DNA of 24,666 nt from a virus, in the IMG/VR virus record IMGVR_UViG_3300023238_000043, positions 1 through 24,666 of that record; one strand, given 5' to 3'. The notes beneath the pieces are model-generated. The model was not told the DNA's origin, did not search any database, and saw nothing but the letters and a program-made list of their open reading frames with translations. How positions within the stretch are numbered: position 1 is the stretch's first letter; each line of letters begins with the position of its first letter. Positions 1 through 13,684 of this stretch are shown piece after piece. Both the position numbers and the translations under genes were made by a program.

Positions 1-682
1 TTGAATTGTAGTATCGTTCTTTTCCTTGGAATCTAGTTCTATCTGTTACTGTGCAACCTTGATTCTCATCTATTAACTGAGTAACAGGACTATCAAGTAT
101 CACACTTGGTTTGGTGTGAGCATGAGAAACATTAACCGAAACACCAGTCTTGTTGTCCATGCCTTTCTTCGGCCAATATACATTGTATCGATTATTGTTG
201 TTCGCTTTACAGTATAAGTCAGTGACAGTATGGAGTATACTCATAGGTCCTCGACAGTTATGCTTCTCGTCATTAAGGACATAATCACAAAACATCTCTG
301 CAATCTCTGGTCTAACTGTGTAACACTCAAGCGCAATACCAATATTACATGTTGGCATCTCTGTGTATTTTATCATAATACGTCTGAACATGTCAACCTG
401 TTCTGGGATTAAATATGCATCATGCTCCATAATCCATACACGTTTGCCAATCGCGATTCTCCGCATGAGTCTGAATGTAGAGTGTATGTGTGCTATTTCT
501 TGTGGTGATCTGTCTTTATGTTTTGATAACGTAAGATGTGGGAATAATGTATCTGGTGTTATACATTGTATTACGTTTATGTTGAGTACGTCAGATACGC
601 ATTCAAAAGATTTGAGGGATAATTCGTTGTACTTTACTGCGAGTGGATTGTTTAGATCAACTCCCATATATGCTTCAATCAT
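1..682 (-). CDS. Glycosyltransferase-like protein, C-terminus cut by window edge
   Basis: An open frame starts at ATG 682-680 and runs without a stop to base 1, giving 227 visible codons. It begins MIEAYMGVDLNN and is preceded by an AGGAT ribosome site at 693-689. Around residue 83 it has V-W-I-M-E-H-D-A-Y-L: a hydrophobic strand ending in an acidic E-H-D-A cluster. This resembles the metal/nucleotide-sugar motif of GT-A-fold glycosyltransferases, and the region before it (SPQEIAHIHSTFRLMRRI) is helical and basic. A sugar-transfer role is inferred from this motif and is not certain. The gene lies downstream of hsp20 and a 30-aa peptide gene and is separated from them by a GC-rich hairpin. No promoter is visible between the hairpin and the start, so it probably relies on read-through from the hsp20 late promoter. 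It could instead be an unrelated phage-specific protein. Confidence 0.7.
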   Translation of the reverse strand, partial: MIEAYMGVDLNNPLAVKYNELSLKSFECVSDVLNINVIQCITPDTLFPHLTLSKHKDRSPQEIAHIHSTFRLMRRIAIGKRVWIMEHDAYLIPEQVDMFRRIMIKYTEMPTCNIGIALECYTVRPEIAEMFCDYVLNDEKHNCRGPMSILHTVTDLYCKANNNNRYNVYWPKKGMDNKTGVSVNVSHAHTKPSVILDSPVTQLIDENQGCTVTDRTRFQGKERYYNS

Positions 683-693
683 TAGTTCATCCT

Positions 694-719
694 AAAAGTT
701 GGGAGGCATCTCACCTCCC
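694..719 (-). terminator. GC-rich hairpin, partial terminator or mRNA stabiliser
   Basis: The perfect 6-bp stem gggagg (701-706) / cctccc (714-719) has a 7-base loop. On the minus strand it is followed two bases later by CTTTT (698-694). A similar short T run lies on the other side (723-726), so it could act weakly in both directions. The T tract is short and the next gene starts only 12 bases later, so attenuation or RNA protection is as likely as full termination. Confidence 0.5.
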
Positions 720-734
720 GAGTTTTCTTGACTG

Positions 735-827
735 TTAAATCAGTGCTGTGATTGATACGAACAATGCGATAGTACACATTGAACCTATTAACCAAGAACC
801 GACCCTGTCTACTTTAGACGTTGCCAT
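735..827 (-). CDS. 30-aa single-pass membrane peptide
   Basis: A short ORF in the gap after hsp20: ATG at 827-825, TAA at 737-735, 30 residues. The N-terminus MATSKVDRVGSW is polar and basic. It is followed by a hydrophobic stretch of about 18 residues (LIGSMCTIALFVSITALI) running to the C-terminus, so the predicted topology is one membrane helix with a short cytoplasmic N-tail. GGAG (841-838) lies 10 bases before the ATG. The gene starts 21 bases after the hsp20 stop and should be cotranscribed with it from the late promoter at 1341. The family is not recognised. The support is the ribosome site, fit to the gap, and clear membrane-helix composition. Chance cannot be excluded at this length. 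Confidence 0.6.
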   Translation of the reverse strand: MATSKVDRVGSWLIGSMCTIALFVSITALI

Positions 828-848
828 TTCTTTTTTTCTCCACGAAAA

Positions 849-1277
849 TTAATTGATTTTAATTTTACGTGGACGCTTCTCTGCGGGCAATTCGACCTTT
901 AGATTAACTACAAGGATACCTTTGTCCAGAGTCGCTCCTACTACTTCAACATACTCGGAAAGTCGAAAAGTTCGTTGAAACTTTTTAGTGGAAATACCTT
1001 TGTGTAGGTATTCAACAGGCGCATCCACACTTTGTTGATTGCCTGCTATGTTCAAAGTTCGCTCGTCCTGTTCAATGATAAGATCGTCCATCTCAAAACC
1101 CGCGACTGCTACCTCTATCACATAATCAAACTCGTTGATTTTTACTACGTTATGTGGAGGGTAAGTGTCTTTGGCATTTCTCGTGACAAAATCTAATTCA
1201 GCGAAGAGGTGGTCAAAACCCACAAATGATGCTCGTGGATATAGACTGGGTACTTTGATACTCGTTGTGTTCGTCAT
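849..1277 (-). CDS. hsp20: Small heat shock protein, Hsp20/alpha-crystallin family
   Basis: The 142-aa protein has an alpha-crystallin domain at about residues 40-130. It contains YPPHNVVKI, the strand-rich VIEVAVAGFEMDDLII segment, a YLHKGISTKKFQRTF block, and the A-x-x-x-G-I-L-x-V-x-L signature (ATLDKGILVVNL). It ends with I-K-I-N, the I-x-I type tail that docks subunits in sHSP oligomers. The family holds unfolding proteins as an ATP-independent chaperone. In T4-type marine phages it is a common accessory gene, thought to protect folding of phage or host proteins late in infection. The ATG at 1277 has a strong AAGGAG site (1290-1285). A late promoter and hairpin lie upstream (1306-1348), so late expression is expected. 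Length is typical of IbpA-like proteins. Confidence 0.93.
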   Translation of the reverse strand: MTNTTSIKVPSLYPRASFVGFDHLFAELDFVTRNAKDTYPPHNVVKINEFDYVIEVAVAGFEMDDLIIEQDERTLNIAGNQQSVDAPVEYLHKGISTKKFQRTFRLSEYVEVVGATLDKGILVVNLKVELPAEKRPRKIKIN

Positions 1278-1305
1278 AGTGCTTCTCCTTAATTAAAAGC
1301 AAGAT

Positions 1306-1335
1306 AAAAATGTAGACCGGACCATCCGCATCTAC
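1306..1335 (-). terminator. Intrinsic terminator-like hairpin abutting the hsp20 late promoter
   Basis: On the minus strand GTAGA (1335-1331) pairs with TCTAC (1316-1312). An inner CGG/CCG pairing extends the stem, and A plus five Ts follow (1310-1306). This fits a terminator for transcripts arriving from regA and the 43-aa ORF. Its 5' arm begins at about +1 of the late promoter at 1341-1348, so on late mRNA it would be a 5'-terminal stem-loop. Confidence 0.5.
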
Positions 1336-1340
1336 GCGCT

Positions 1341-1348
1341 TATTTATA
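1341..1348 (-). promoter_or_regulatory. T4-type late promoter for hsp20
   Basis: The plus strand reads TATTTATA, that is TATAAATA on the minus strand. This is an exact match to the T4 late octamer read by gp55-RNA polymerase on the gp45 clamp. With T4 spacing, transcription would start near 1335, 58 bases before the hsp20 ATG. It sits directly after the stop codon of the 43-aa ORF. Confidence 0.8.
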
Positions 1349-1480
1349 CTAACAGTAACCCTGTTTCGTATAAAACTTGTACAGGTCAACATAGTATTGA
1401 AACTGTATTGGACTGTGATCAGGATTAGGAAGTTCCCCGAAGAGTTCTTCCATCCTGTGTATATGTTCTTCTACTGTCAC
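1349..1480 (-). CDS. 43-aa ORF translationally coupled to regA
   Basis: GTG at 1480-1478 overlaps the regA stop TGA (1479-1477) in a GTGA junction, and the stop TAG is at 1351-1349. The product has 43 residues. Its first half is acidic and helical (VEEHIHRMEELFGELP) and its second half aromatic (QFQYYVDLYKFYTKQGYC). The overlapping start, the lack of any other gene in this 130-base gap, and the late promoter beginning exactly at its end all favour a real gene. There is no transmembrane segment and no family I recognise. In T4 the DNA polymerase gene 43 follows regA, but it is not in this window. The GTG start and length make it easy for gene callers to miss. Confidence 0.65.
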   Translation of the reverse strand: MTVEEHIHRMEELFGELPNPDHSPIQFQYYVDLYKFYTKQGYC

Positions 1481-1848
1481 TTGTTACCTATATTATACTT
1501 GGGACATAACTCCCACTCACTCTTTTCTTTGTGAGAAATAATCTTAATCTGTCTTAGCGGTGCGCATTCAGCAACCATCTCTTTATCAACGATGCTTACT
1601 AAACCCCAATCTGCTAACAACTGAGCAATACTATTTCTTCGTAGTAGATCCATCTCTTCTAAATTAGACTTCTTTCCGTCTAGTAGAAATAGTTCTTTAA
1701 AGTGTACAATGAAGTATCTGCCTTGCTTGTGTAGAATGTGACAAGACTGAAACAGTTTATTTTCTTTACGTGAGGCAACACCCATTCGTGTCAGAGTCTC
1801 GCGTACTTTTAAGAAGTCATCGGGTTCTTGAAGAATAACTTCTAACAT
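1477..1848 (-). CDS. regA: RegA translational repressor
   Basis: RegA binds the start regions of early phage mRNAs and blocks ribosome loading, and in T4 it controls clamp and clamp-loader genes. The sequence follows T4 RegA nearly throughout: EPDDFLKVRETLTRMG, F-QSCHILHKQGRYFIVHFKE, RRNSIAQLLADWGL and the ending W-x-L-x-PKYNIGN. I prefer ATG 1848-1846 (123 aa) because it lines up with the T4 N-terminus (MLEVIL against MIEITL). The frame is open back to GTG 1881, which would add 11 residues overlapping gp62 and has AAAAGGA nearby. A GGAC-ATC-GTCC mini-hairpin (1860-1850) precedes the ATG and could take part in autoregulation. The gene follows gp62, as in T4. Confidence 0.93.
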   Translation of the reverse strand: MLEVILQEPDDFLKVRETLTRMGVASRKENKLFQSCHILHKQGRYFIVHFKELFLLDGKKSNLEEMDLLRRNSIAQLLADWGLVSIVDKEMVAECAPLRQIKIISHKEKSEWELCPKYNIGNK

Positions 1849-1867
1849 ATCGGACGATGTCCATAAT

Positions 1868-2245
1868 TTAATTCCTTCCACCTTTATAGATCCTTTTCTT
1901 AATACTTATTATTTGGTCGGGTGTGAGGAGTTTAAGAGCAGACTTTGCTTTCTCGTTGCTATAACCATAATACTCTTTAACTGCATCCACGTCATCAGAT
2001 TTGGTCGCTTTATCCCATTTAGAGAACCGCTTCCTCTTTCTAACTATATTTAGCAGAAAATGAAATTGCAGTTTCTTGTCTAAACTATGATGTTGATTCA
2101 TAGCATTAGCGACTGCAACAGTGTCTGGAAAGTAAGAAAGGGATCTATTTACCATATATGGAGCATAACCCTTCTCAGTCAGGTCATCTACCATCAGGTC
2201 TTTCTTAGTTAGATTAATCGCCATCACATAATCAAAAGGGTTCAT
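1868..2245 (-). CDS. 62: Clamp loader small subunit gp62
   Basis: The 125-aa protein carries the gp62 core: a Y-x-P-Y-M-V-N-R-S-L-S-x-F-P-D segment (about residues 28-42), V-A-x-A-M-N (46-51), the central FHFLLNIVRKRKRFSKW block, and a C-terminal helix-rich basic region. gp62 forms a 4:1 complex with gp44 that opens and loads the gp45 clamp at primer ends. T4 gp62 is 187 aa. This one lacks the N-terminal extension and part of the C-terminus, as in marine T4-type phages. ATG 2245 lies within the last codons of the DexA-like gene (14-base overlap), with AGAGG about 11 bases upstream. RegA follows directly. Confidence 0.88.
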   Translation of the reverse strand: MNPFDYVMAINLTKKDLMVDDLTEKGYAPYMVNRSLSYFPDTVAVANAMNQHHSLDKKLQFHFLLNIVRKRKRFSKWDKATKSDDVDAVKEYYGYSNEKAKSALKLLTPDQIISIKKRIYKGGRN

Positions 2246-2837
2246 TGTAGAATACGCCTCTTAGCAACTGCTGTATTCTGAAAATGTCCATAGCGATATC
2301 GTGTGCAGGGTTGTGAGCAATGAAGTCGCCTTCATTAACACCCTTAGGTATGAATGAGTTGTTGATATTAATACCATGACCAATTGCAATACCTTCAATC
2401 ATAGTACGAGTATCACGAACATCCCAGAATCTGTAGGGTTCTGATACGCCTAGCATATTGCATATAGATGTAGTGAGAACAGGATCAAAAGTGTTGCCTC
2501 GCGTATAAACTGTTTGACCAGGTGTCATTGTTAAACGAAGAAACGTAGGCAGTTCTGTGATTGATACATCTGTTGACAGAGGTTTGAGTTGCGACATTGC
2601 CGCTTCTCCTTGCTTCTGCCACCACGCGAGTGTATTCTTATCTACAATACGTCCATACTTCTCGACCTGCTCTTTGACATCAAACTTCATTATCTTAGCA
2701 AGACCAACTAAGTCCATATAAGAGTATGGAGTATCAGAAAGAAACATATCTTCGTCAACTGTCATTGCCGCCACGTTCACTACAGGAGCGGTGTTCAAGT
2801 CAGTGCCTAATGTTTCATAATCATAAATATTAATCAT
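2232..2837 (-). CDS. dexA: DexA-like 3'-5' exonuclease (DEDDh)
   Basis: The 201-aa protein starts MINIYDYETLG, with exonuclease motif I as D6-x-E8. Motif II is probably D118 in GNTFDPV, and motif III is H175-x4-D180 in AHNPAHD, the DEDDh arrangement. T4 DexA shows the same landmarks: DFETMG, STIEWW (here NTLAWW), FWNQRDIRTRIE (here FWDVRDTRTMIE) and FVAHDSIHD (here FIAHNPAHD). DexA degrades single-stranded DNA 3'-5'. An RNA substrate is possible, because related folds act on RNA. ATG 2837 has GGATGG about 8 bases upstream, whereas ATG 2849 would overlap the upstream gene and has a poorer site. In T4 dexA is far from here, so its place between clamp loader genes 44 and 62 is unusual. Confidence 0.85.
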   Translation of the reverse strand: MINIYDYETLGTDLNTAPVVNVAAMTVDEDMFLSDTPYSYMDLVGLAKIMKFDVKEQVEKYGRIVDKNTLAWWQKQGEAAMSQLKPLSTDVSITELPTFLRLTMTPGQTVYTRGNTFDPVLTTSICNMLGVSEPYRFWDVRDTRTMIEGIAIGHGININNSFIPKGVNEGDFIAHNPAHDIAMDIFRIQQLLRGVFYNEPF

Positions 2838-2839
2838 TT

Positions 2840-3625
2840 TCAATACCATCCATTATCATAATCTATTTTATATAACTTTTTCACTCTAGCATAATCACTA
2901 GGAGTCATATTTCTTGTAATCAGTTCACTCGGTTCTAGTATCTTATAATAATCCATATAAGAAACTTGCTGTCTATTCTGTTCTGTTGTGGTACAAATAT
3001 CTAATAGAATATCTTGAGTAGACCTATAGTCCGAGTTGTTCGAAATATTCTTATGAGTATACCATACTTTTCTATCATAGTCAATACCATAAAACGAAAG
3101 AATGTGTTTATACATCTCTTCAATATTATTTAAGTTATAGACATAATCATAATTACTACGCAAACCCATATACAAAGTCTGAGTCCAGAAATGCTGATTA
3201 AGAACTTTACCTGAATACAGATCATCAAGTAGTAGTTTCACGCTAGAATATGCATCATAATCTTTGTTGATCAGAGGTATATCTTCGGGTGATGCATAGT
3301 TGCTCTTTGCCTGTAATTGAAGCATTTCGACCGCAGACTTAAATCTCTCTATAGGATCTCGCGTGACCGCGAATCGTACACTATCATATCTAAAAGGAAC
3401 ATCAAATTGATTGCCATATTTCAGAACTTGAAGTTGTCGCCAAGACGATGCCCCTCCTCTCACATGCTGAAAGTCTATCTGTTCTTTTTGAAAAGGAATA
3501 TTAGGTGCCACGACTTTCATAACCTGATGAAAGAATCCCTTTAAAGACGAGAATCCGTTCTTTGGGCATATTCTTATATCAATACCTTCGGGCAGATATA
3601 ATATGTTATCCGGTGTAATTGCCAT
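2840..3625 (-). CDS. Sulfotransferase-like protein
   Basis: The 261-aa protein has the two PAPS-binding signatures of sulfotransferases. A 5'-phosphosulfate loop lies at about residues 20-29 (C-P-K-N-G-F-S-S-L-K). The 3'-phosphate site is at 87-99 (V-T-R-D-P-I-E-R-F-K-S-A-V), including the R-D-P-x-x-R-F-x-S core. The family moves sulfate from PAPS to hydroxyl or amino groups of sugars, peptides or small molecules. No signal peptide or membrane helix is seen, so it should be cytoplasmic. The start (ATG 3625) overlaps the gp44 stop by one base (TAATG), so it is translated with the clamp loader. It separates gp44 from gp62, which are adjacent in T4, and so appears to be a later insertion. The substrate is unknown. 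It may modify phage or host surface glycans. Confidence 0.78.
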   Translation of the reverse strand: MAITPDNILYLPEGIDIRICPKNGFSSLKGFFHQVMKVVAPNIPFQKEQIDFQHVRGGASSWRQLQVLKYGNQFDVPFRYDSVRFAVTRDPIERFKSAVEMLQLQAKSNYASPEDIPLINKDYDAYSSVKLLLDDLYSGKVLNQHFWTQTLYMGLRSNYDYVYNLNNIEEMYKHILSFYGIDYDRKVWYTHKNISNNSDYRSTQDILLDICTTTEQNRQQVSYMDYYKILEPSELITRNMTPSDYARVKKLYKIDYDNGWY

Positions 3626-4563
3626 TAATTCATCTTCACGTTTGCCATAACCTCAGTCATACAAGCAACAATGTTTAACTCATGGTCTGCGACAAAGGCA
3701 TTCTTATACTGATAATCAGCAAGAATTAACACTAACTGCGGAATAGAATCTGGGTCGACCTTATCAAACATCTTATCATATAACGAACGAAAGATAGATG
3801 ATGCATCAACATCAATGTTATTGACGACCCAAGAGCGCATCTTCTTAAAGTCTTTTGTTTTTAGATGTTCGTATAGTTGATCAATCTGACTATCAGTACT
3901 ACAATCAATAGCAATAGACTCTAATTGACCACCCATCGAGAAGCGTTGACACTCATTGATTACTCGTCTCCAATCAGGAGCATGTTTCATAATCATGTTA
4001 GCAATAAGTTTATCGTTATATGTAACACCTTCAGTATCAAGAATTGTCTTGAGTCGTTCCATGAACTGACCACACAATTGACCCATGTCTTTCTTAGATG
4101 TATTGAATTCATATACACCACAGCGAGAATGGATAGGTTCGATGATACGGTTCTTAAAGTTACAAGTTAAGATAAATCTACAGTTGTCAGCGAACTCTTC
4201 GATGAAACCGCGTAGTGCGGGTTGAGTTGATTGCGCATTAAGATAATCTGCCTCATCTAGGATAACAACTTTAACGTCACCGCCAAGAGATACCGAAGAT
4301 GCAAATCTTCTAATCTTACCACGAAGTGTGTCGATGTTACCGTCTTCAGAACAGTTGACCACAATACAATCATAGTCAAGTTCTTTACATAGTGCCTTTG
4401 CTACAGTTGTTTTACCAAGACCAGCAGTACCAGTAAAAAGCATATTGGGCATCTCGCCGCCTTCTACGATTTTAAGGAATACATCTTTCAGTGATTTAGG
4501 AAGAATGGTGTCTTTAATTGTTTGTGGGCGATATCGCTCGGTCCAGATGAATTGGTCACTCAT
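3625..4563 (-). CDS. 44: Clamp loader large subunit gp44 (AAA+ ATPase)
   Basis: The 312-aa protein has Walker A at residues 45-52 (GTAGLGKT), Walker B at 100-106 (VILDEAD), sensor 1 at about 131-139 (ILTCNFKNR) and the S-R-C arginine finger motif at 146-148. It begins WTERYRPQT, the conserved clamp-loader start. T4 gp44 is 319 aa. Four gp44 subunits with gp62 use ATP to load the gp45 clamp for DNA polymerase and late transcription. I place the start at ATG 4563; the frame extends to TTG 4581, but the ATG gives the family N-terminus. The sigma70-type promoter at 4629-4657 begins this unit (44, sulfotransferase, dexA, 62, regA, 43-aa ORF). The stop overlaps the next start by one base. Confidence 0.95.
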   Translation of the reverse strand: MSDQFIWTERYRPQTIKDTILPKSLKDVFLKIVEGGEMPNMLFTGTAGLGKTTVAKALCKELDYDCIVVNCSEDGNIDTLRGKIRRFASSVSLGGDVKVVILDEADYLNAQSTQPALRGFIEEFADNCRFILTCNFKNRIIEPIHSRCGVYEFNTSKKDMGQLCGQFMERLKTILDTEGVTYNDKLIANMIMKHAPDWRRVINECQRFSMGGQLESIAIDCSTDSQIDQLYEHLKTKDFKKMRSWVVNNIDVDASSIFRSLYDKMFDKVDPDSIPQLVLILADYQYKNAFVADHELNIVACMTEVMANVKMN

Positions 4564-4601
4564 AATATTTGTATCTCTCAAAAGTTAAAATTGTATAATA
4601 T

Positions 4602-4647
4602 AAAAAAATGTCTTGTCTACTATACGTAATTATACAGCAGACAAGAC
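4602..4647 (-). terminator. Intrinsic terminator of the gp45-FkbM unit, with promoter in its loop
   Basis: On the minus strand GTCTTGTCT-type arms (9 perfect pairs, 4639-4647 with 4610-4618) flank a 20-base loop, and A plus seven Ts follow (4608-4602). The stem starts just after the FkbM stop at 4654. The loop contains the TATAAT box of the gp44 promoter, so RNA made from that promoter lacks the 5' arm. Confidence 0.78.
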
Positions 4648-4657
4648 CAAAAGTCAA
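4629..4657 (-). promoter_or_regulatory. Sigma70-type promoter for gp44 operon
   Basis: On the minus strand TTGACT (4657-4652), 17 bases, then TATAAT (4634-4629). The predicted start is near 4622, about 60 bases before the gp44 ATG. The TGA inside the -35 box is also the stop codon of the FkbM gene. Confidence 0.85.
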
Positions 4658-5499
4658 GCATTTAATTTCTTAAAATAAAAATCGCCCCAGTTCGGATTAT
4701 AAGGCGGTATTTCTGCCGGCGGAATCTCGGAGTATCTTCGAAACTCTCTTGGATGATTATCTTTAAACTCGGATAGTATAAAGTCACCAGATTTCCAGAA
4801 TACATCATCAGAATGATCCGGTGACGTAAAGAATACAAGTTCTTCAGATAATGGATACACGTACTTATCCATTGCATAACCTATCACACTATAATCTAAT
4901 GTAAGTAATAGTGCAACTACTTCATTGTGCCTATTCGATATTTCAATCTTTATTACTGGATCGTTATTACTTAATAACTCTTTTGCTCCCTGCAATAAAT
5001 TATATTCACATCCTTCAACATCAATCTTTATATAAGAAACATTGACAAAGTTAAATGAGTCTAATGTTCTAGTAACTACTGTAGTACTGCCGATCAGTTT
5101 ACGATCTTCATTAACGACAGGAGGAACAAAGTCAAGATGATTTGTTCTTCCGTTTCCTTTATATACAACAAGAGATGCTGTAGCATTCTCGTCGCTTAAT
5201 GCTAGTCGATGTGTGATAATATTATCATGATGCTTTAAATTTTCTCTAAGGCAAACATAATCTTCACCAGGTTCAAAGGAATGTATTTCTCCGAAGTCCT
5301 TTACATATGAAACTGATTCAATACCAGTACTAGCACCGCAATCCAAATAAACTTTATCGGGTCCGTAAATATCACCAAGATTCAGAGAATCAATAACAAT
5401 TCTTGATTTTCCAAATGACGAAGTGATATTACGATGACCTTTGTCATTACCTCTAGTGAAGTAATCATGACCGAGAATATTCGCGATAGGCGTCAGCAC
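4654..5499 (-). CDS. FkbM-family methyltransferase
   Basis: The 281-aa SAM-dependent methyltransferase has motif I at about residues 51-59 (Y-L-D-C-G-A-S-T-G), the S-F-E-P motif at 74-77 (acidic residue for SAM ribose), T-L-D-S-F at 145-149, and the FkbM hallmark Y-I-K-I-D-V-E-G-x-E-Y at 156-166. FkbM enzymes O-methylate sugars or small molecules. Phage copies are often near carbohydrate genes, and the substrate here cannot be told. The start is GTG 5499, four bases after the stop of the 63-aa gene, with no strong ribosome site, so expression may depend on coupling. The stop lies inside the -35 box of the gp44 promoter. It sits between clamp gene 45 and loader gene 44, which are neighbours in T4. 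Confidence 0.88.
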   Translation of the reverse strand: MLTPIANILGHDYFTRGNDKGHRNITSSFGKSRIVIDSLNLGDIYGPDKVYLDCGASTGIESVSYVKDFGEIHSFEPGEDYVCLRENLKHHDNIITHRLALSDENATASLVVYKGNGRTNHLDFVPPVVNEDRKLIGSTTVVTRTLDSFNFVNVSYIKIDVEGCEYNLLQGAKELLSNNDPVIKIEISNRHNEVVALLLTLDYSVIGYAMDKYVYPLSEELVFFTSPDHSDDVFWKSGDFILSEFKDNHPREFRRYSEIPPAEIPPYNPNWGDFYFKKLNA

Positions 5500-5503
5500 A
5501 AAA

Positions 5504-5695
5504 TCATTCTACCGCTTGTGCCTGAGCGTCTTCAACAATCTGTATCAATGCAATACACTGATCGCGTAACTGTCCAATAGTTGCTAGTTCTTCACCTTTA
5601 AAACCACCTCGTGCCGCAACTGTGTCGATTACTGCAACAGTTGATCGGGTGATACGATTAGCGAGGTCTGTCATTTCGTTAGTTGTTTTAATCAT
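5504..5695 (-). CDS. Small protein downstream of the clamp gene, unknown function
   Basis: A 63-aa, mostly helical protein (NEMTDLANRITRSTVAVIDTVAARGG, then ATIGQLRDQCIALIQIVEDAQAQAVE). There is no transmembrane segment or metal motif. The heptad-like spacing of hydrophobics in both halves suggests a helical hairpin or an oligomerising peptide. ATG 5695 lies two bases after the gp45 stop, with GGAG nine bases upstream inside the gp45 coding end, so it is coupled to the clamp gene. A role with the clamp is possible from position only. No family recognised. Confidence 0.75.
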   Translation of the reverse strand: MIKTTNEMTDLANRITRSTVAVIDTVAARGGFKGEELATIGQLRDQCIALIQIVEDAQAQAVE

Positions 5696-5697
5696 TA

Positions 5698-6372
5698 CTA
5701 TACTCCGTAAGTACTAGATTTTTCAAGGGCACACCAGTATTCGATGCCATTATCTTTGTTCACAAAATGTGAGATTAGTTTCTTAGAGATACCAACTTCA
5801 TAATCACCATCAATCATTTTTAGATTAGAGATGTTAAAGATAAAGTTGAACTTCTCTTCAGCAAATACTCCATCAACATCAATAGAATATACGTTTGATG
5901 TACGATCATTGTTATCGATCACAGACAATGATACAACACCATCAGTTGCGGTCACTGACATTTCAGTATGACCAAGAACAGATGCCGCACGTTTGATACT
6001 TGATAGCGTAGCACTATCTAGTGTAAACTTAACTTCGGTCTCAGGCATAATAATGTCCTTCGAAGGAGTAGTTAGCATCTCAATGTCAGAGTAGAAGTAC
6101 TTGATACGTGAGCGACCAGCACTATCTGTTACGAGAACATATGAGTCTTCGAACTTGAGTCGAGGAGAGTCTACCAGAGATAGAACACTCAGAAACTCAC
6201 TGAGTTCATAGATGCCAAATGTCTTGGGGAATGTCACATCTAGTTCAACAGAACTTAGGACATTCTTTGCTTCTGATACAGTCTTGATTACATTGCCTTC
6301 AGTGATCACAATGTTTGGGTTGATAGTAGCATAGTTCTTGAGAACTTGCATTGTCTTTTCAGTTAATTCCAT
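5698..6372 (-). CDS. 45: Sliding clamp gp45
   Basis: The 224-aa protein matches T4 gp45 (228 aa) in layout: MELTEKTMQVLKNYATINPNI at the start, the F-G-I-Y-E-L-S-E-F-L-S-V-L-S-L loop-strand region near residues 50-65, and two repeated beta-rich domains. The trimer encircles DNA, gives the polymerase processivity, and in T4-type phages is also the mobile activator of late transcription through gp55 (and gp33). A perfect sigma70-type promoter (6404-6432) ends about 30 bases upstream, giving a leader near 25 bases. The next gene starts two bases after its stop. The clamp thus has its own promoter, separate from gp46/47. Confidence 0.95.
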   Translation of the reverse strand: MELTEKTMQVLKNYATINPNIVITEGNVIKTVSEAKNVLSSVELDVTFPKTFGIYELSEFLSVLSLVDSPRLKFEDSYVLVTDSAGRSRIKYFYSDIEMLTTPSKDIIMPETEVKFTLDSATLSSIKRAASVLGHTEMSVTATDGVVSLSVIDNNDRTSNVYSIDVDGVFAEEKFNFIFNISNLKMIDGDYEVGISKKLISHFVNKDNGIEYWCALEKSSTYGV

Positions 6373-6403
6373 AATATATCTCAGTTGGTTTGTTTATGGG
6401 TGT

Positions 6404-6432
6404 ATTATAACATAGAACTTTAGGGATGTCAA
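6404..6432 (-). promoter_or_regulatory. Consensus sigma70-type promoter for gp45
   Basis: On the minus strand TTGACA (6432-6427), 17 bases, TATAAT (6409-6404), with TGT before the -10 giving an extended -10. The TGA within the -35 box (6431-6429) is also the gp46 stop codon. Confidence 0.9.
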
Positions 6433-8135
6433 GCGACTTTACTAAAGTTTTTCTCTTTAATGAATTCAATCTTTGAATCAAAGTATTGCTCCAGGATTGC
6501 TCCTTTATGACTGATAACAAAGATGCTAGAATCACCATCCATACTATCAATTATCTTAGTTAGGTTATCCACACCATCAGCATCAAGAGACGAATCGAAA
6601 GTTTCATCTAGTATCAACAGATTAGTGGCAACACTGTTCTTCATCTTAGCGATCATACGCCAGGTAAATAGTAACGCCAGATCGATGCGTTGCTTCTCGC
6701 CCTCAGAGAAAGAATCATACGAGAACGAATCACGGTGACGCGAACGAATAGTTTCTTTGAAAGTGTCATCTAGGTCAAACGAGACATAGAAGTCCAGAAT
6801 CTGGAGATACTGATTCGTTAGTTTATTAATGACAGGCAAGTACTGCTTAATGATTTTGGTTTTAATACCAGTATCTTTCAACAGTTCTGCTATAACAACA
6901 CCGTATGATCCTTCATCAGCAATCACAATATGCTCATCATGTAGAACTTGCTTACTCGCTTCGAGTTCTGCTTTTGCCTCTAATGCTTCATCAATACTTG
7001 CTGTCTCTTCATCAATCTTAATAAGATCATTCTGAAGAACTGACATACGTTTCTGCCACTCGTTCACTTGAGCATTACTGATATGTACATCATTAATGGC
7101 AGAGACTAGTTGCCTGCTATGTGTCTCTACACTTCCACGTCTATCGTCGAGTTCGTTGATTTTGGTGGACGCTTGGGTTCTACCTTCTTCGAGTTCTTCT
7201 CCCTTAGTTCGTGCGTGTGCTGTTTTTGTTGATTTAAGGGATTCTTCGATGTCCTGGTCACAGGTTGGACAGATGTCATTACTTTCATAGAATTTAATTT
7301 CCTTTGCAAGTTCTTTCTGTTTAACCTGAAACTGATGGTCGTACTTCTCGAACTCTACTCTCTGCTTGTTTATCTTAGCAAGTTGCGACTTTACCATTGC
7401 AAGTTCATGCTCAAGATCAGCAGTATTAGTTGCTATACGTTCATCAATCTTCTCGCCCAACTCAGTAATCTCTACCTGCTTCTTCTCTTTCTGTTCGGAA
7501 CTAAGTAGACGAAGTGTGTTTACATATCGTTCTTGGTTCTTAATCTTATCACGAATCAACTCTAACTGAACTTGATTAGTCCGACCCTTCTCACGTAGCA
7601 CAGACATACGCTCTTTAAGAATACCATTCATCTTAGAGAATACGTTAATGTCAAGTAGGTCTTCGATCACATCTCGTCTATGTTGAGCAGGGAGTTGCAT
7701 GAATGGAACAAATGAAGATGATCCAAGAACAACTATCTGGTGAAACGATTTGTGATTCAACTTCAGAATATTCTTCTCAAGTACTGATTGATACTCCTTG
7801 TTGTGACTGTCCTGATTGACCAGAACATTATCTTTCCATATCTCGAAAGTATTAGGTTTAATACCACGATGAATCTTATACTCACTTACACCAACAGAGA
7901 ACTCTACTTCAACTTCAGTTCCTTTATTGTTGATAGAATTGATCAACTGATTCTTCGTGATACTCCGATGTGCCTTACCGAACAGTGCGAATGACAGAGC
8001 ATCCAACATCGTAGACTTACCTGCACCGTTCTGACCTACTACAAGAGTAGACCTAGAACGATTCAGTTGGATCTCAGTGAAACTATCACCGGTCGATAAG
8101 AAATTCTTATATCTTAATGTTTTAAAAATAATCAT
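6429..8135 (-). CDS. 46: Recombination nuclease subunit gp46 (Rad50/SbcC-like)
   Basis: The 568-aa ABC/SMC-type ATPase has Walker A at residues 34-42 (GQNGAGKST), a long central coiled coil with the zinc hook C-P-T-C at 289-292, the signature F-S-E-G-E-K-Q-R at 476-483, Walker B L-L-I-L-D-E at 506-511, and the switch histidine in V-I-S-H-K-G. It pairs with gp47 (Mre11-like) to resect DNA ends, creating single strands for UvsX recombination-dependent replication and for host DNA breakdown. Length matches T4 gp46 (560 aa). ATG 8135 overlaps the gp47 stop in an ATGA junction, as expected for a fixed-ratio complex. Confidence 0.96.
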   Translation of the reverse strand: MIIFKTLRYKNFLSTGDSFTEIQLNRSRSTLVVGQNGAGKSTMLDALSFALFGKAHRSITKNQLINSINNKGTEVEVEFSVGVSEYKIHRGIKPNTFEIWKDNVLVNQDSHNKEYQSVLEKNILKLNHKSFHQIVVLGSSSFVPFMQLPAQHRRDVIEDLLDINVFSKMNGILKERMSVLREKGRTNQVQLELIRDKIKNQERYVNTLRLLSSEQKEKKQVEITELGEKIDERIATNTADLEHELAMVKSQLAKINKQRVEFEKYDHQFQVKQKELAKEIKFYESNDICPTCDQDIEESLKSTKTAHARTKGEELEEGRTQASTKINELDDRRGSVETHSRQLVSAINDVHISNAQVNEWQKRMSVLQNDLIKIDEETASIDEALEAKAELEASKQVLHDEHIVIADEGSYGVVIAELLKDTGIKTKIIKQYLPVINKLTNQYLQILDFYVSFDLDDTFKETIRSRHRDSFSYDSFSEGEKQRIDLALLFTWRMIAKMKNSVATNLLILDETFDSSLDADGVDNLTKIIDSMDGDSSIFVISHKGAILEQYFDSKIEFIKEKNFSKVA

Positions 8136-9205
8136 ACGATATCTAAGGTCTGTGCCTCAATCATTAATTGGTGAACTTCACTCTTGATCCGGTCTTTGTC
8201 TAAGACTGTATCTACAGCGTCTATGTAAGTATACAACAAATCCTCGGTAGAGTCAACATTTATTTTATCATCATCAACATCATTACCCATAAACTCTGAA
8301 AAGTTCTCTGCAATCTTCAGTTCATGTATCTGTTTCATCTGCAAACGATCCACAAACTTCTCGAACAATTTAGGTTTAGATTTGTTCACTACAACTAACT
8401 TAACATACTTATGGTCTACGTCAGGTAGTTCACCAATGCCATACTTGTAGTCTGCTTTCTCTACTGTATCATCATAGTATACACGTTCAAAGATACGTAG
8501 TGGATTATGTACAGGTGTCAGTTCACGAGTGTCTGTGTCCAGGACATGAAAGTACTTAGGATCATGCGCATCAGACCAGAAGAACTCGTACTGTGACCCA
8601 AGATAATGAATCGGTCCTTGCTGTGACTTAGTATGAAAATGACCAGATAGAACCATTTCGAATCTATCGAACGTCGATGATTTCATACCATGTACACAAG
8701 GAATGCCCGCTTGCATCTCAAACCCTTCTAACTCCAAGTGCGCACCTACATGAGATGCTTTACACGTAGCAAGAAACTCCATCGTGTGCTTTTCGTTATC
8801 TTGGTTTATCCACGGAACAAGTGCAAAATCAAGACCATCATAATTAACAACAGTAGGTTTTTCGATGATACGAACCTCTGCCATATAATGTCCGAGTAGT
8901 TCTTTTAGAGCATTCAGTTGATTCGTGTTCTTGTAGTACACATCGTGATTGCCAGGAATAATGTCCATGTGTATTTTATACTCACGGAGTTTCTCTAGGA
9001 ATATCTTACGATTGTGTTCTAGTGCCTTAAAGTTAATGGTCTTTCTGTTCTCATAATAATCACCAAGATGCACAATCTTAGTAATCCCGTTCTCTTTCAG
9101 ATATGGAAAGAACACATCACGATAGAATCTCTCTTGATAGTCCATAAAGACTTCAGAAGAATTTCGTACACCGCAATGCGTATCATTTAGGAAAGCAATC
9201 TTCAA
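8132..9205 (-). CDS. 47: Recombination endonuclease subunit gp47 (Mre11/SbcD-like)
   Basis: The 357-aa calcineurin-type phosphodiesterase has all metal-binding motifs in order: D8-x-H10 (NDTHCG), G-D49 (HLGDYYE), G-N86-H87-D (IPGNHD), a later HVGAH, and G-H-F-H (SGHFHTKS). Together with gp46 it forms the end-resecting nuclease. T4 gp47 is 339 aa. The ATG at 9205 is three bases after the gp55 stop, and its stop overlaps the gp46 start, so 55, 47 and 46 form one transcription unit. The C-terminal part is less conserved and likely carries the gp46 contact. Confidence 0.96.
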   Translation of the reverse strand: MKIAFLNDTHCGVRNSSEVFMDYQERFYRDVFFPYLKENGITKIVHLGDYYENRKTINFKALEHNRKIFLEKLREYKIHMDIIPGNHDVYYKNTNQLNALKELLGHYMAEVRIIEKPTVVNYDGLDFALVPWINQDNEKHTMEFLATCKASHVGAHLELEGFEMQAGIPCVHGMKSSTFDRFEMVLSGHFHTKSQQGPIHYLGSQYEFFWSDAHDPKYFHVLDTDTRELTPVHNPLRIFERVYYDDTVEKADYKYGIGELPDVDHKYVKLVVVNKSKPKLFEKFVDRLQMKQIHELKIAENFSEFMGNDVDDDKINVDSTEDLLYTYIDAVDTVLDKDRIKSEVHQLMIEAQTLDIV

Positions 9206-9208
9206 ACT

Positions 9209-9820
9209 CTAGTCCTCAAAATGATCTGATAAGTCCGAATCAACAGAGCGACTTCGACGTTTGCGCTTATTGTCTTTGGCATACTCTTTAATGAGTCTAT
9301 CATTGGACTTAACATAGTCGATTCTACCACGCAATTCTTCGACAAATGCTTGGGTCTGCTGTTGTACTCCAGCGTCAAGCAATTCACTACTCACCATCTC
9401 TGACAAACCACTCTCTGACAGATAGCGAATCTTGATGTCTTGTTGCTTCTTCTCTTTCTCAATACGACGAAGAAATGCATACCAACTAATCTGTGTGAAG
9501 TATGCGAATGCATTAGGTTTACCAGTTCGTGTAGCAGTCTCCAGATTGTAGTTTTCAATTGCTTTGAGGCAGTTTTCTACAGCATCCATTACCATTTCTT
9601 CGCGATACGTATATCGGACGAAGTTAGATTTGTGTGATAGTCCTTCACATATCTTTAAAAAGCATTCCGCAATGTAGTTAGTGACGATTGGCGGTACTTC
9701 GCCTCTCGCTACTGCGGCATTCTTAGATGCAACATAGTCTACTACCGACTGTGAGAACAGAGCATTATTAACGTAATGTGGTTTCTCTTTCGGTTTTAGT
9801 TTCTTTGTTGGTTCTTTCAT
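9209..9820 (-). CDS. 55: Late-transcription sigma factor gp55
   Basis: The 203-aa protein resembles T4 gp55 (185 aa) in its central sigma-2-like region: YREEMVMDAVENCLKAIENYN, then PNAFAYFTQISWYAFLRRIEKEKK. This matches the T4 segment with [22 protein letters not shown]. gp55 directs RNA polymerase to TATAAATA promoters, five of which are in this window. Its C-terminus is a basic stretch (DNKRKRRSRS) followed by S-D-L-S-D-H-F-E-D. This fits the acidic/hydrophobic tail by which T4 gp55 docks on the gp45 clamp. A perfect sigma70-type promoter inside the upstream gene (9872-9900) drives it, with a leader of about 45 bases. The ribosome site is weak (GAGTAAG). Confidence 0.92.
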   Translation of the reverse strand: MKEPTKKLKPKEKPHYVNNALFSQSVVDYVASKNAAVARGEVPPIVTNYIAECFLKICEGLSHKSNFVRYTYREEMVMDAVENCLKAIENYNLETATRTGKPNAFAYFTQISWYAFLRRIEKEKKQQDIKIRYLSESGLSEMVSSELLDAGVQQQTQAFVEELRGRIDYVKSNDRLIKEYAKDNKRKRRSRSVDSDLSDHFED

Positions 9821-9838
9821 TATCTTTGCTTACTCGGG

Positions 9839-10297
9839 TTAGTTGTGGATTGGTATGTTCTTGTTAGGACCATTATACACTGCTTCGTTTTGATTGTCAA
9901 CCACTCTCTGTCTTAAATCAGAAGAAGAGAATCTATGGGATCTTTCATTGAAGTAGATGTGCATACCGCGCTTGCGACAGAGGTCTCTGCCAGTGAACTC
10001 TTTGTCTTTGTACTCTTCGCCAAGTATACGCACATCTATATCGTACATAGAAAGAATGTCAAGAAGGTCACGCTCGGTGCTGTAGGGAACAATCTCGTCA
10101 ACATACGAACACGCTTGAAGTTGCGTGTAGCGTTCAACGATGGTTTGGATGGGTGCGTTCTTTTCGGGGCGATCTAGTTGAGGGTCAACTTGAAGTCCTA
10201 CTATAAGATATTCACATTGTTCTTTTGCGTTGCGGAGCATCTGTACGTGACCAGCATGTAGCAGATCGAATGCCGAGCAAGTGAAACCAATTTTCAT
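9839..10297 (-). CDS. Cytidylyltransferase-like nucleotidyltransferase
   Basis: The 152-aa protein has the HxGH nucleotidyltransferase signature in G-F-T-C-S-A-F-D-L-L-H-A-G-H (about residues 4-17), followed by M-L-R-N-A-K. The C-terminal block R-x-S-S-S-D-L-R-Q-R-V resembles the ISSTxLRxRI motif of TagD and RfaE-type enzymes. The family joins CTP (or ATP) to glycerol phosphate or sugar phosphate to make activated precursors. The exact substrate cannot be decided. A perfect sigma70-type promoter (10330-10358) starts it. The codons near the 3' end (VVDNQNEAVYN) also encode the gp55 promoter, so this stretch carries a double constraint. Similar genes sit near gene 55 in marine T4-type phages. 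Confidence 0.85.
   Translation of the reverse strand: MKIGFTCSAFDLLHAGHVQMLRNAKEQCEYLIVGLQVDPQLDRPEKNAPIQTIVERYTQLQACSYVDEIVPYSTERDLLDILSMYDIDVRILGEEYKDKEFTGRDLCRKRGMHIYFNERSHRFSSSDLRQRVVDNQNEAVYNGPNKNIPIHN
9872..9900 (-). promoter_or_regulatory. Consensus sigma70-type promoter for gp55-47-46
   Basis: On the minus strand TTGACA (9900-9895), 17 bases, TATAAT (9877-9872). It lies wholly inside the end of the cytidylyltransferase coding sequence. The predicted start near 9865 is about 45 bases before the gp55 ATG. Confidence 0.85.
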
Positions 10298-10329
10298 TAT
10301 ATAATGCCATTTCGTTTAATATAGAGTCC

Positions 10330-10358
10330 ATTATACACTATTAATGAACGATTGTCAA
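10330..10358 (-). promoter_or_regulatory. Consensus sigma70-type promoter for the cytidylyltransferase gene
   Basis: On the minus strand TTGACA (10358-10353), 17 bases, TATAAT (10335-10330). The predicted start near 10323 leaves a leader of about 26 bases before ATG 10297. It lies back to back with the plus-strand promoter at 10385-10413 inside the same 158-base gene-free gap. Confidence 0.9.
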
Positions 10359-10362
10359 GAAG

Positions 10363-10399
10363 TAAAAATAATTAAAGAAAAAGGTTGACATCCTTTCTC
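10363..10399 (-). terminator. Probable terminator after the uvsY-uvsW-161 aa unit
   Basis: On the minus strand GAGAAAGG (10399-10392) pairs with CCTTTTTC (10384-10377), 8 pairs including one G-U, around a 7-base loop. A T-rich tract follows (TTTAATTATTTTT, ending near 10364). It stands just before the -35 box of the next promoter. The plus-strand -35 box TTGACA falls exactly in the loop. Confidence 0.55.
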
Positions 10400-10413
10400 A
10401 TTTATAGTATAAT
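10385..10413 (+). promoter_or_regulatory. Perfect-consensus sigma70-type promoter pointing rightward (antisense)
   Basis: On the plus strand TTGACA (10385-10390), 17 bases, TATAAT (10408-10413). The predicted start is near 10420. No rightward gene lies downstream. Only a 9-codon frame (ATG 10423) is close, and beyond 10456 the RNA would be antisense to the 161-aa gene and uvsW. Sequence match is exact; function is inferred. Confidence 0.65.
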
Positions 10414-10455
10414 GCACTTAGAATGTTTTTAATCATAAAAAAACTCTTTTGACAC

Positions 10456-10941
10456 TCAGTGAACAATATCGTCATCTGTTGGATTAGACTTTAAGAAAGG
10501 AAACTGTACAACATTAGATCCGTCTTTGCTCATCACTCGTTTCATAGACTGTTCTAAGCGTCCTCTATTTTTATCTAAGTTTCTTTGGTACTCTGCTTCC
10601 GCTTCCGCAACTTCTTCGTCACGCTCAAAGGCAACAGCATTCATTTCTTCTACAGCATAAACATACTCAGAGGCAAGGTGCTTGCTAGGACGATTGCTCG
10701 TAATTACATGACTCATATTCATTACCATATATTCTTTCTCGCCCTCACAAAAATTGACAAAGGGGCGAAACATAAAGACACTCTCGCCAGACTCGTTCAT
10801 TTGTCCGTTCACTATCTGCATAACATTCTTAATAATAATTTCATTAATAGCGGGGTCAGCAGGATCGTTCCACTCCAAAACTTCACAAACTATTTCATGA
10901 CCACTACTTAACTTAAACTGAGCAAAATCTATTTCGTTCAT
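10456..10941 (-). CDS. 161-aa protein of unknown function, possible Sm-like N-domain
   Basis: ATG 10941 overlaps the uvsW stop by one base (TAATG), so it is cotranscribed and coupled. Residues 1-80 are beta-rich, with F-K-L-S-S-G-H-E-I-V-C-E-V-L near the start and later E-Y-M-V-M-N-M-S-H-V-I. The short-strand pattern with a G-x-E-I turn recalls Sm/LSm-like folds, but this is a weak analogy. Residues 95-130 are charged and helical (alternating E, A, R, K), and the tail is acidic. There is no catalytic motif, membrane segment or signal peptide. Its place after uvsY and uvsW suggests early expression with recombination functions. It could bind nucleic acid; I do not claim it. Confidence 0.7.
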   Translation of the reverse strand: MNEIDFAQFKLSSGHEIVCEVLEWNDPADPAINEIIIKNVMQIVNGQMNESGESVFMFRPFVNFCEGEKEYMVMNMSHVITSNRPSKHLASEYVYAVEEMNAVAFERDEEVAEAEAEYQRNLDKNRGRLEQSMKRVMSKDGSNVVQFPFLKSNPTDDDIVH

Positions 10942-12416
10942 TATATATCAACCTGTGTTATCTTATAGGGGAACTTCTCACTAGTATATATCTTTATTCT
11001 TTCTGCACTATGGCGAAGAGTAAAGTTTGCTTTCTTACCTATATGTAGATCATCTGCTATATCATATAATTTAGCAGTTGAACCATCATCACTCTGCCTT
11101 AACCCACGCCCGATAGACTGGAGTACACGTATCTGAGACTTGCTCGGAGACGCGAATATAATGTTGTGCAGATTTCGAATGTTAATACCAGTAGAAAAAG
11201 TGCCAAGAGAGGCAACAATGATACAATTATTATGCTTATCAACGATATTACGGATCTGCTCTCTATCTGCTGTCTTCGTCTCCCCACTAACATAGAATAT
11301 CCTTTGTCCTTCTTTAAGTTTATCTTCTACTAAATCACGTAGAACTTTACCATGTCTATCAACCAAGTTGAATAGTACTAGCGTATTTCCTTTCTGACTG
11401 ACAGCAAGGTTTGCAATAAAGTTATTGCGCTTCTCGTATGATACAATGAAATCAATCTCTTCTTGGTAAGTCCTGCCTTCGGTCAACTTACAAAACTCTT
11501 CGGCATACTTCAGTAGTATGATATCAATATCCAGTTTTGCTAATGTCTCATTTTCTTGTAGTGCGTGTGTAGTAGTAACACGATGTACTGGACCAAATAG
11601 TCCCTCTAGTACTAACTTATGTACTTGAGTACCGTCGAGTGTACCTGTTGTTCCCCACCTGTACTCAGCATTCTTTGCTTTGTTCATAATAGATGATAAA
11701 GACTTCGACTTGAATCCATGTACTTCATCACCAAAGATAGCACCATAGTCTTCAAACCAAACTGGGTGTAACTTATAGATGGACTGCCATGTTGTGACAA
11801 CAATACGCTTATCAGTCTCTTTATCTTTACCAGAGTAAATCTTATGTACTTCGTTATCTACATCCATTCCGTATGATTTAAAGTCAGCATACATCTGCTC
11901 AACAAGAGAAGTTGTCGGAACAATAACAAGAATCTTCTTATCATGATTCACCATGTACCATTGCATTAGCAGATAGATGATAAAGGATTTACCAGAACCA
12001 GTCGGTGATATTAGAATGCATCGCTTATATGTGATTGCATGTGTTATAGCATCATACTGATAGTCGCGAGGTTTGAATGGAATACCTAAAGTATCCATCC
12101 AATTCATGGTCTCTACGTGATTGACTTTGTTAGTTTCGTACGGGAAACCGTAAGGACCTTCGTCCACCTTGATGCCATACCCACGTTGCATAGCAAACTT
12201 CTTTATAGCATAGTATAACCCTGCATTGATCTGTCCTGTGTTACGATCCAGCATTCTTATCTTGCCGTCCCACAACCGCTTCTTTACAGCGGGCATGAAC
12301 TTCGCGCCAGGAACTTCAAATGTAAAGTGTTCACTCAATTCATGGACCACATCAGGGTCACACTCCACCAATTGGAGCATCGAGTAATCTTTCATTTTCA
12401 GGGTTATTGTTTGCAT
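10941..12416 (-). CDS. uvsW: Recombination helicase UvsW
   Basis: The 491-aa superfamily-2 helicase has a P-R-D-Y-Q-Y-D-A motif at about 116-123, Walker A at 137-144 (SPTGSGKS), DExH box D-E-V-H at 230-233, motif III G-T-T-G-T-L at 255-260, and motif VI S-I-G-R-G-L-R-Q near residue 436. The N-terminal 90 residues match the small DNA-binding domain of T4 UvsW (KKRLWDGKIRMLDRNTGQINAGL). UvsW unwinds D-loops, R-loops and branched DNA and regresses forks, moving T4 from origin-dependent to recombination-dependent replication. ATG 12416 follows the uvsY stop with no spacer, with CAGGATT as ribosome site. Confidence 0.95.
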   Translation of the reverse strand: MQTITLKMKDYSMLQLVECDPDVVHELSEHFTFEVPGAKFMPAVKKRLWDGKIRMLDRNTGQINAGLYYAIKKFAMQRGYGIKVDEGPYGFPYETNKVNHVETMNWMDTLGIPFKPRDYQYDAITHAITYKRCILISPTGSGKSFIIYLLMQWYMVNHDKKILVIVPTTSLVEQMYADFKSYGMDVDNEVHKIYSGKDKETDKRIVVTTWQSIYKLHPVWFEDYGAIFGDEVHGFKSKSLSSIMNKAKNAEYRWGTTGTLDGTQVHKLVLEGLFGPVHRVTTTHALQENETLAKLDIDIILLKYAEEFCKLTEGRTYQEEIDFIVSYEKRNNFIANLAVSQKGNTLVLFNLVDRHGKVLRDLVEDKLKEGQRIFYVSGETKTADREQIRNIVDKHNNCIIVASLGTFSTGINIRNLHNIIFASPSKSQIRVLQSIGRGLRQSDDGSTAKLYDIADDLHIGKKANFTLRHSAERIKIYTSEKFPYKITQVDI

Positions 12417-12860
12417 TTAGAATCCTGCTTCAAATTGCTTCCATCGTATCATATTTCCGATTGTCTGGTGTCGCCACTTAATGTTCTCGACGATTTCTTT
12501 CAACACATCGATTAGTTCTTTTATATATGTGATCCTTGCTTCGCTCTTCATGATCTCGGGATCAGAGTTATAGTAGTAATCCATTTCCCCTTTAAGAATC
12601 TTCAGACCATCAAAGGGATCAGGATTCCATCCCTTCTTCTCGATCACTTCACGAGACATCTTACCTTGGTAATATAACCACTTATCTTTAAGTAGTAATT
12701 TCTGCTTGAACTCCACATCCTTTAACTTCAGGCGCGAGTCAGAGAGTAATGTTAGATACTTAGCATGGAGACGTGGTGTCTCCTGGGAACTAACGTCTAA
12801 TTGGTTAAACTCAATTTCACAGTCTTTCGTCCATTCTTGTAGAACAGTTTGTAAATCCAT
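12417..12860 (-). CDS. uvsY: Recombination mediator UvsY
   Basis: The 147-aa helical protein is similar in size and pattern to T4 UvsY (137 aa). It has L-H-A-K-Y-L-T-L-L-S-D near the start, a central L-L-K-D-K-W-L-Y-Y-Q-G-K, and the ending I-R-W-K-Q-F-E-A-G-F, matching the T4 ending with R-A-F-E-A-G-K. UvsY helps load UvsX recombinase on single-stranded DNA covered by gp32. It starts its own unit, with a sigma70-type promoter at 12899-12927 and an AAGGTGA ribosome site. uvsY and uvsW are neighbours in T4 too, here with uvsY first. uvsX is not in the window. Confidence 0.93.
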   Translation of the reverse strand: MDLQTVLQEWTKDCEIEFNQLDVSSQETPRLHAKYLTLLSDSRLKLKDVEFKQKLLLKDKWLYYQGKMSREVIEKKGWNPDPFDGLKILKGEMDYYYNSDPEIMKSEARITYIKELIDVLKEIVENIKWRHQTIGNMIRWKQFEAGF

Positions 12861-12873
12861 AATATTTCACCTT

Positions 12874-12896
12874 AAAAAATGTAGTTATTAACTACA
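12874..12896 (-). terminator. Terminator of the tail-tube paralogue gene, overlapping uvsY start
   Basis: On the minus strand TGTAGTT (12896-12890) pairs with AACTACA (12886-12880), 7 bp with a 3-base loop, followed by six Ts (12879-12874). The stem is AT-rich, so strength is moderate. The uvsY promoter would start RNA near 12892, inside the 5' arm, which breaks the stem in uvsY mRNA. Confidence 0.6.
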
Positions 12897-12898
12897 CT

Positions 12899-12927
12899 AT
12901 TGTATCATACAAAATCAAAATAGTCAA
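12899..12927 (-). promoter_or_regulatory. Sigma70-type promoter for uvsY-uvsW
   Basis: On the minus strand TTGACT (12927-12922), 17 bases, TACAAT (12904-12899), with TGA before the -10 as an extended -10. That TGA (12907-12905) is the stop codon of the upstream structural gene. One mismatch in each box. Confidence 0.7.
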
Positions 12928-13414: not shown

Positions 13415-13439
13415 TGTTTCTTACTCCAGTTTATACAGA

Positions 13440-13447
13440 TATTTATA
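13440..13447 (-). promoter_or_regulatory. T4-type late promoter for the tail-tube paralogue
   Basis: Exact TATAAATA on the minus strand, 26 bases before ATG 13414. With T4 spacing the transcript starts near 13434, leaving a 20-base leader that contains CTGGAGT. Confidence 0.85.
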
Positions 13448-13458
13448 CAAGTTTTAAC

Positions 13459-13644: not shown

Positions 13645-13684
13645 CACGTTTCTCAGAGTTTAATTATAGAACTATTTAGCAGAC

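Follow-up and report, generated by a model that had tools for sequence, protein, structure and literature searches.

Genomic setting

The window, which is the whole stretch of DNA analysed here, is a 24,666-base virus record with T4-like genes on its minus strand; its relatives suggest a marine origin. Pfam matches to gp45, the clamp loader A subunit, RegA, UvsW and AAA mark it as a T4-type phage. The minus-strand gene order is gp45 (5698-6372, by Pfam), a small open reading frame of 63 amino acids (5504-5695, from the ORF list), an FkbM-domain methyltransferase (4654-5499; Pfam PF05050, E 6.2e-17), gp44 (3625-4563), the clamp-loader A subunit and RegA. The clamp loader gp44 was recognised by an AAA match, a sub-threshold Gp44_lid match and tblastn to annotated clamp loaders, and the nearest annotated gp44 is that of Phage C48C1 (Kyanoviridae). 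A promoter scan places a perfect consensus promoter at 6404-6432 (minus) ahead of gp45, the small ORF and FkbM, which would form one unit with FkbM as its last gene. The following gene, gp44, is predicted to be served by a promoter nested within a hairpin at the end of that unit, from which its leader would be about 59 nt long.

Several other features of the window and its relatives were recorded in passing. The gene at 9209-9820 was first guessed from gene order to be a sigma factor; it has no Pfam match and no claim is made for it. At 10330-10413 two perfect 12/12 promoters diverge (minus 10358-10330, plus 10385-10413). The plus-strand promoter aims antisense into the ORF at 10456-10941, its -35 sits within a minus-strand terminator-like hairpin (10399-10377), and it is conserved in L098, L202 and L087 (L098 and L202 look alike) and in the identical record L203. 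By eye, a TTATATTATG- or TTATTATGG-like string lies just 5' of the gp44 start at many loci, with or without a promoter or hairpin. Upstream of gp45 in contigs L012, L025 and L067, the promoter -10 doubles as the 3' arm of a short hairpin whose arms differ and yet pair.

A predicted promoter interleaved with a hairpin

On the minus strand, a site of the form TTGACT-17-TATAAT is interleaved with a hairpin, an arrangement noticed earlier from the sequence that proves stronger than first described. The predicted promoter matches the consensus at 11 of 12 positions with a spacer of 17 nt; its -35 hexamer TTGACT (4652-4657) overlaps the TGA stop of FkbM (4654-4656) and its -10 hexamer TATAAT occupies 4629-4634. 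The hairpin (4647-4610, -23.4 kcal/mol) has a 16-bp stem that includes G-U pairs, with a 5' arm at 4632-4647, a 6-nt loop at 4626-4631 and a 3' arm at 4610-4625 that holds the likely transcription start at about 4622, as judged from the position of the -10. It is followed by a single A (4609) and a tract of seven Ts (4602-4608), the predicted termination zone. The original prediction described a 9-bp hairpin with seven Ts ending the FkbM unit, the TATAAT in its loop and the 5' arm wholly inside the spacer. The seven Ts are there, with one A intervening, and the stem is longer than was thought. Because it runs to 16 bp, the -10 is split evenly between the loop and the top of the stem, and the 5' arm, although mostly spacer, also takes in the first half of the -10.

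The fold is far more stable than that of shuffled sequence, with z scores against shuffles of -6.3 for 4590-4657 and -7.8 for 4602-4657 and no shuffle out of 200 as stable in either case. RNA running from the predicted start at 4622 to 4540 forms no stable structure (-5.1 kcal/mol), with 185 of 200 shuffles matching or exceeding its stability. It follows from the sequence and these folds, as had been proposed, that RNA from upstream would carry both arms and RNA from the nested promoter the 3' arm only. A terminator acting on the plus strand was rejected, as no run of Ts follows the stem there. A known structured RNA family was likewise rejected, with Rfam 15 covariance models giving no match at E<=1 within window positions 4400-4800. 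A second promoter-like site, TAGACA-18-TACAAT (4619-4590, minus, 10/12), has its -35 in the hairpin 3' arm; its TACAAT is missing from L003 and L006, whose leader differs.

Comparison with chance expectation

Neither promoters nor terminators are unusually frequent in the window as a whole. Promoter-like sites number 50 in positions 1-12000 (40.4 expected, sd 6.4) and 27 in positions 12001-24666 (34.7 expected), while terminator-like sites number 7 (5.6 expected, sd 2.7) and 11 (7.2 expected), none of these counts being far above chance. Against them the nested element is an outlier. In a first scan of the window and three further sequences (G012, G001 and G002), it was the sole hairpin overlapping a promoter, and a looser scan added a nested case of low score in G001 and, in G012, a hairpin overlapping a -35. 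The looser scan of nested promoter/terminator pairs took in nine sequences, 1.22 Mb of T4-like sequence in total. At a stem score of at least 25 it returned three independent elements (RB49, G023 and the window), compared with none in 40 Markov-resampled sets; the raw count of five takes in G002, which has the same element as the window, and counts one G023 hairpin in two registers. At a stem score of at least 17 the raw count was seven against a mean of 0.9 in the resampled sets, with none in T4, KVP40, C48C1 or G012. A chance hairpin was rejected on the shuffle stability, on the resampled genome sets and on the conserved pairing described below.

Alleles of the element and their neighbours

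The core pattern of the element matched seven contigs, of which six carry the window element and one (L084) is unrelated. One of the six (L002/L083) shows no difference from the window in the segments compared. Five contigs (L003, L004, L005, L007 and L008) are without FkbM and carry the same element directly after the small ORF. Its 55 bases are exact in L002, L003, L004, L007 and L008, and the single change in L005 converts a G-U pair to G-C. Since the same 55 bases, save for that change, stand in five contigs without FkbM, the element behaves as a module. Identity between the window and L003, L005 and L008 is 92-93% for gp45 and 89-91% for gp44; they differ in the upstream gene and have diverged in the leader and first gp44 codons.

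This form, called allele A, has a counterpart in allele B, which accompanies FkbM in L098, L114, L136 and L138 (three of these correspond to L006, L009 and L010). The gp44 DNA of L008 and L006 is 99.0% identical over 900 bases, yet the first carries allele A and the second allele B, and both alleles fold. The presence of FkbM and the A or B allele are therefore uncoupled, as contigs with FkbM carry either allele and near-identical gp44 genes carry different ones, which is the pattern expected if exchange occurs at the cassette. In a gp44 tree of 131 rows, A and B fall in one fully supported clade of four and a third, broader type, C, needs five changes, and the tree fits a patchy history of the element.

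A wider dyad family at gp44

The wider family comprises 30 distinct sequences including the window, of which 27 lie at the gp44 promoter, and its C-type consensus reads TTGAC-N5-GTTTC-N6-TGTAYAAT-N11-GAAAC. A pattern for both outer arms matched 54 contigs and gp44 is the next gene in 51 of them. The three other copies precede Hsp20-like (L115), MazG-like (L125) and DNA-polymerase-like or gp43-like (L163) genes, names given by eye from the translated start, and the L125 copy is without a T tract. A pattern for the left half matched 72 contigs, 44 with gp44 just downstream; among the remaining 28, only L115 and L125 have the right arm, and of the 26 without it nine show GTTTCTTAT on the left. 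To lessen pattern bias, 121 distinct gp44 upstream sequences were collected via the gp44 protein and selected by the left half alone. Among the 17 distinct promoters obtained by this route, GAAAC stands at the same offset in 16, and B has GAAGC. In a further, pattern-derived form (L089 and L139), AAGAC lies further downstream.

Across 140 distinct gp44 upstream sequences, 33 have A, B or C and 57 another promoter, in some cases with an inverted repeat of a different kind at its -10; the remaining 50 lack a promoter at the threshold used. Related phages that keep a promoter and lose the stem thus occur outside the close relatives (the 57 of 140) and not among the nine nearest gp44 loci (92-100% identity), all of which carry allele A or B. 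A general enrichment of inverted repeats at the gp44 -10 was also considered (p<0.05 in 11 of 37 promoters thinned to below 75% identity and in 21 of 237 promoters elsewhere) and is not relied on, because the set is related by descent and the stem finder missed C-type stems with inner loops.

Where it is found, the element matches one place per record (3 of 6, 5 of 5 and 7 of 10 records positive in three sets), most records being fragments. A repeat present in many copies per genome was accordingly rejected, with the same reservation that fragments predominate. There are no copies of the element in RB49, KVP40, T4, C48C1, G022 or G023.

Conservation of pairing and of sequence

In an alignment of the 30 distinct elements, 86.6% of cells are paired, compared with at most 58.2% when the columns are slid by one to three, and in 7 of 17 pairs both sides have changed with the pair kept. 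None of 500 shuffles reached the observed values on four of five measures, including pairing, double changes and covariation score; the number of pair types was not above the shuffles (296 of 500 as high). A chosen set of seven alleles agreed with this, 10 of 500 shuffles reaching its count of pairs with a double change. These figures should be read with the sampling in mind, as the pattern used to select the 30 rows already fixes their outer arms, and a single lineage, represented by three near-identical A rows, supplies most of the double changes. Inner pairing in 25 C-type cores does not exceed that of shuffled controls, while in the A allele both arms are altered (GTCTT..AAGAC) and the inner stem is fully paired. 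Together the shuffle results and the C-type null indicate that pairing is kept between alleles, whereas the outer blocks of C are conserved at the level of sequence. Covariation of the stem arms among related phages, which had been proposed as a test, is borne out between alleles, by compensatory changes that come mostly from one lineage.

Terminator strength and separate upstream hairpins

Strength as a terminator was gauged with a classical score that takes in a T-tail sum and the stability per length. The window element scores -3, which is borderline, and allele B -16. Two other hairpins in the window served as controls: that at 13711-13692, preceded by a 446-aa ORF that is probably gp23 by eye, scores +56, and that at 19690 scores -20. 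Scores for 21 C-type dyads, a set from which a stability filter excluded L088, fall between -28 and -64 in 19 cases, with L097 at -18 and L158 at -2. The window stem is long and A+T-rich, with one A before the T tract.

Many relatives have another hairpin close by. Of 25 distinct A, B or C elements at gp44, 17 are preceded within 45 bases by a separate G+C-rich hairpin, and eight stand without one. The dyad hairpin is stronger in those eight than in the 17 (one-sided Mann-Whitney p 0.012, uncorrected for kinship). By the same measure, five of the 16 separate hairpins scored rank as good terminators (+22 to +51) and the other 11 do not. The idea that the hairpin insulates two operons is consistent with the stem, the T tract and the logic of the folds, but the separate hairpins ahead of 17 of 25 elements argue against insulation as its sole role, and the score is borderline. 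These 17 elements, with the one copy away from gp44 that has no T tract, suggest that the dyad probably has another or older role than termination. We read this as an older dyad promoter that may have taken over termination in lineages without a separate hairpin.

Relation to known elements of T4-type phages

Promoter early stem-loops (PeSLs) are, reportedly from work by Arbiol in 2010 and Comeau in 2014, composite promoter-terminator motifs of T4-type phages. They are said to combine a strong sigma-70-like promoter and a terminating stem-loop in one cassette, and to occur in several similar copies per genome that are able to recombine, and to act as a point of gene exchange. The window element would be a compact form of this kind of motif. 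It resembles PeSLs in having a predicted strong sigma-70 promoter and a stem-loop where two genes of a T4-like phage meet, and in being a near-identical cassette beside different genes, with the variable gene FkbM coming and going next to it. It differs in that promoter and hairpin are interleaved, whereas in PeSLs they are in tandem, and in that it lies at one place per record where found, in records that are mostly fragments, instead of in several copies. A single place per record leaves no repeats for it to recombine with.

The nested geometry itself is not unprecedented. RB49 has 12 tandem terminator-then-promoter pairs by our scan and two nested ones on the minus strand of AY343333, at about 3201-3155 (gene 39/ORF005c) and 112374-112330 (alt/ORF183c). 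The gene 39/ORF005c element consists of TTGACA-16-TATAAT and a 13-bp hairpin whose 6-nt loop is exactly TATAAT, followed by a T-rich tail, and its -35 lies four bases past the upstream gene. RB49 and GEC-3S thus share with the window a -10 inside a terminator-like hairpin with the 5' arm in the spacer. The gene-39 junction is present in 58 phage records, and the five inspected (RB49, GEC-3S, G2494, Phi1 and ECD7) all carry the same element. The nested form is already in public annotation: in GEC-3S a promoter at 3175-3202 (-10 at 3175-3180) overlaps a terminator at 3164-3191. For G2494 the gene-39 terminator is annotated by ARNOLD, the annotation of Phi1 and ECD7 has neither promoter nor terminator at this junction, and at the alt site GEC-3S has a promoter annotated only. 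Although the geometry is alike, the RB49/Krischvirus gene-39 element is unrelated in sequence, stands beside other genes in E. coli phages and has a terminator score of up to +27, above the -3 of the window.

KVP40 carries, on the plus strand at 85859, 100194 and 121377, three near-identical hairpins with a T tract in the promoter spacer. As in the window, a terminator-like hairpin overlaps a promoter, here in three copies, but it encloses the -35 and not the -10. In a palindromic promoter of G023 (minus, 95815-95860), a single long hairpin holds the -35 in its 5' arm and the -10 in its 3' arm, and by eye the site reads as a promoter on both strands. At the level of titles and the opening of abstracts, the literature searched yielded no paper on a -10 box within a terminator loop.

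Interpretation and alternatives

The reading that we favour, and hold to be reasonably probable, is that the 56-base element (4602-4657) is a compact nested terminator-promoter cassette of the window lineage, derived from a dyad promoter. Polymerase arriving from the gp45-small ORF-FkbM unit would make both arms and the U tract and stop at about 4608-4602, and host sigma-70 polymerase would start the gp44 unit from TTGACT-17-TATAAT. The resulting gp44 RNA would begin in the 3' arm, lack the 5' arm and so escape termination. As to origin, the element most probably goes back to an older gp44 promoter of this phage group with the dyad GTTTC-N25-GAAAC around its -10; the form in the window lineage has a fully paired stem and a longer T tract, with no separate upstream hairpin.

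The dyad could instead be mainly an operator of the gp44 promoter, with a dimeric regulator of phage or host binding GTTTC-N25-GAAAC centred on the -10 and the terminator-like appearance being a by-product. We regard this as rather unlikely, although it has several observations on its side. The exact offset of GAAAC in 16 of the 17 promoters chosen by the left half, the other having GAAGC, would suit a protein site, as would inner bases that vary in the C-type cores with pairing not above shuffle. The separate G+C-rich hairpins ahead of 17 of 25 elements, five of 16 scored being good terminators, point the same way, as do the copies before genes that look by eye Hsp20-, MazG- and gp43-like, one of them without a T tract. 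A fixed protein site is nevertheless hard to reconcile with the A allele, in which both arms changed and the inner stem is fully paired. The nine contigs that keep the left half without the right also weigh against an operator, as they do against the nested cassette, and a single place per record offers no hint of a regulon, with the reservation that the records are mostly fragments. More speculative still, and in our estimate improbable, is that the family of 30 hairpin-promoters controls gp44, and at times gp43-, Hsp20- and MazG-like genes, through the dyad, and that in the window lineage it became a hand-off device. A polymerase stopping some 15-20 bases past the gp44 start would stay on the DNA and restart at the nested promoter, tying gp44 output to the flux through the gp45 operon. 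Interference or hand-off is conceivable as initiation and termination would share the same DNA, and for hand-off it has been demonstrated in vitro that polymerase can be retained after intrinsic termination and restart at nearby promoters (PMC6978380).

Readings in which only half of the element works fare worse. That the promoter alone functions, with the hairpin a relic or without a role, would agree with the 57 of 140 distinct gp44 upstream sequences that have a promoter without the element and with the borderline terminator score of the window, but we consider it very unlikely given the stability of the hairpin, its compensatory conservation and its near-exact preservation beside different genes. 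That the terminator alone functions and gp44 is served elsewhere, for instance from the weaker TAGACA-18-TACAAT site (10/12), seems scarcely credible, as L003 and L006, whose leaders are without the TACAAT, keep the 11/12 promoter.

Returning to the nested cassette, if both functions are real, some 56 bases would insulate two operons and restart transcription without an extra protein, and the same bases would be under three constraints at once, those of promoter, stem and T tract. The relatives of RB49 are tractable for the more general question of a terminator and a promoter sharing DNA, and of whether a polymerase that stops there restarts there. Beyond this, the conserved GTTTC-N25-GAAAC dyad points to a way of regulating the clamp-loader gene in these phages of which we found no description.
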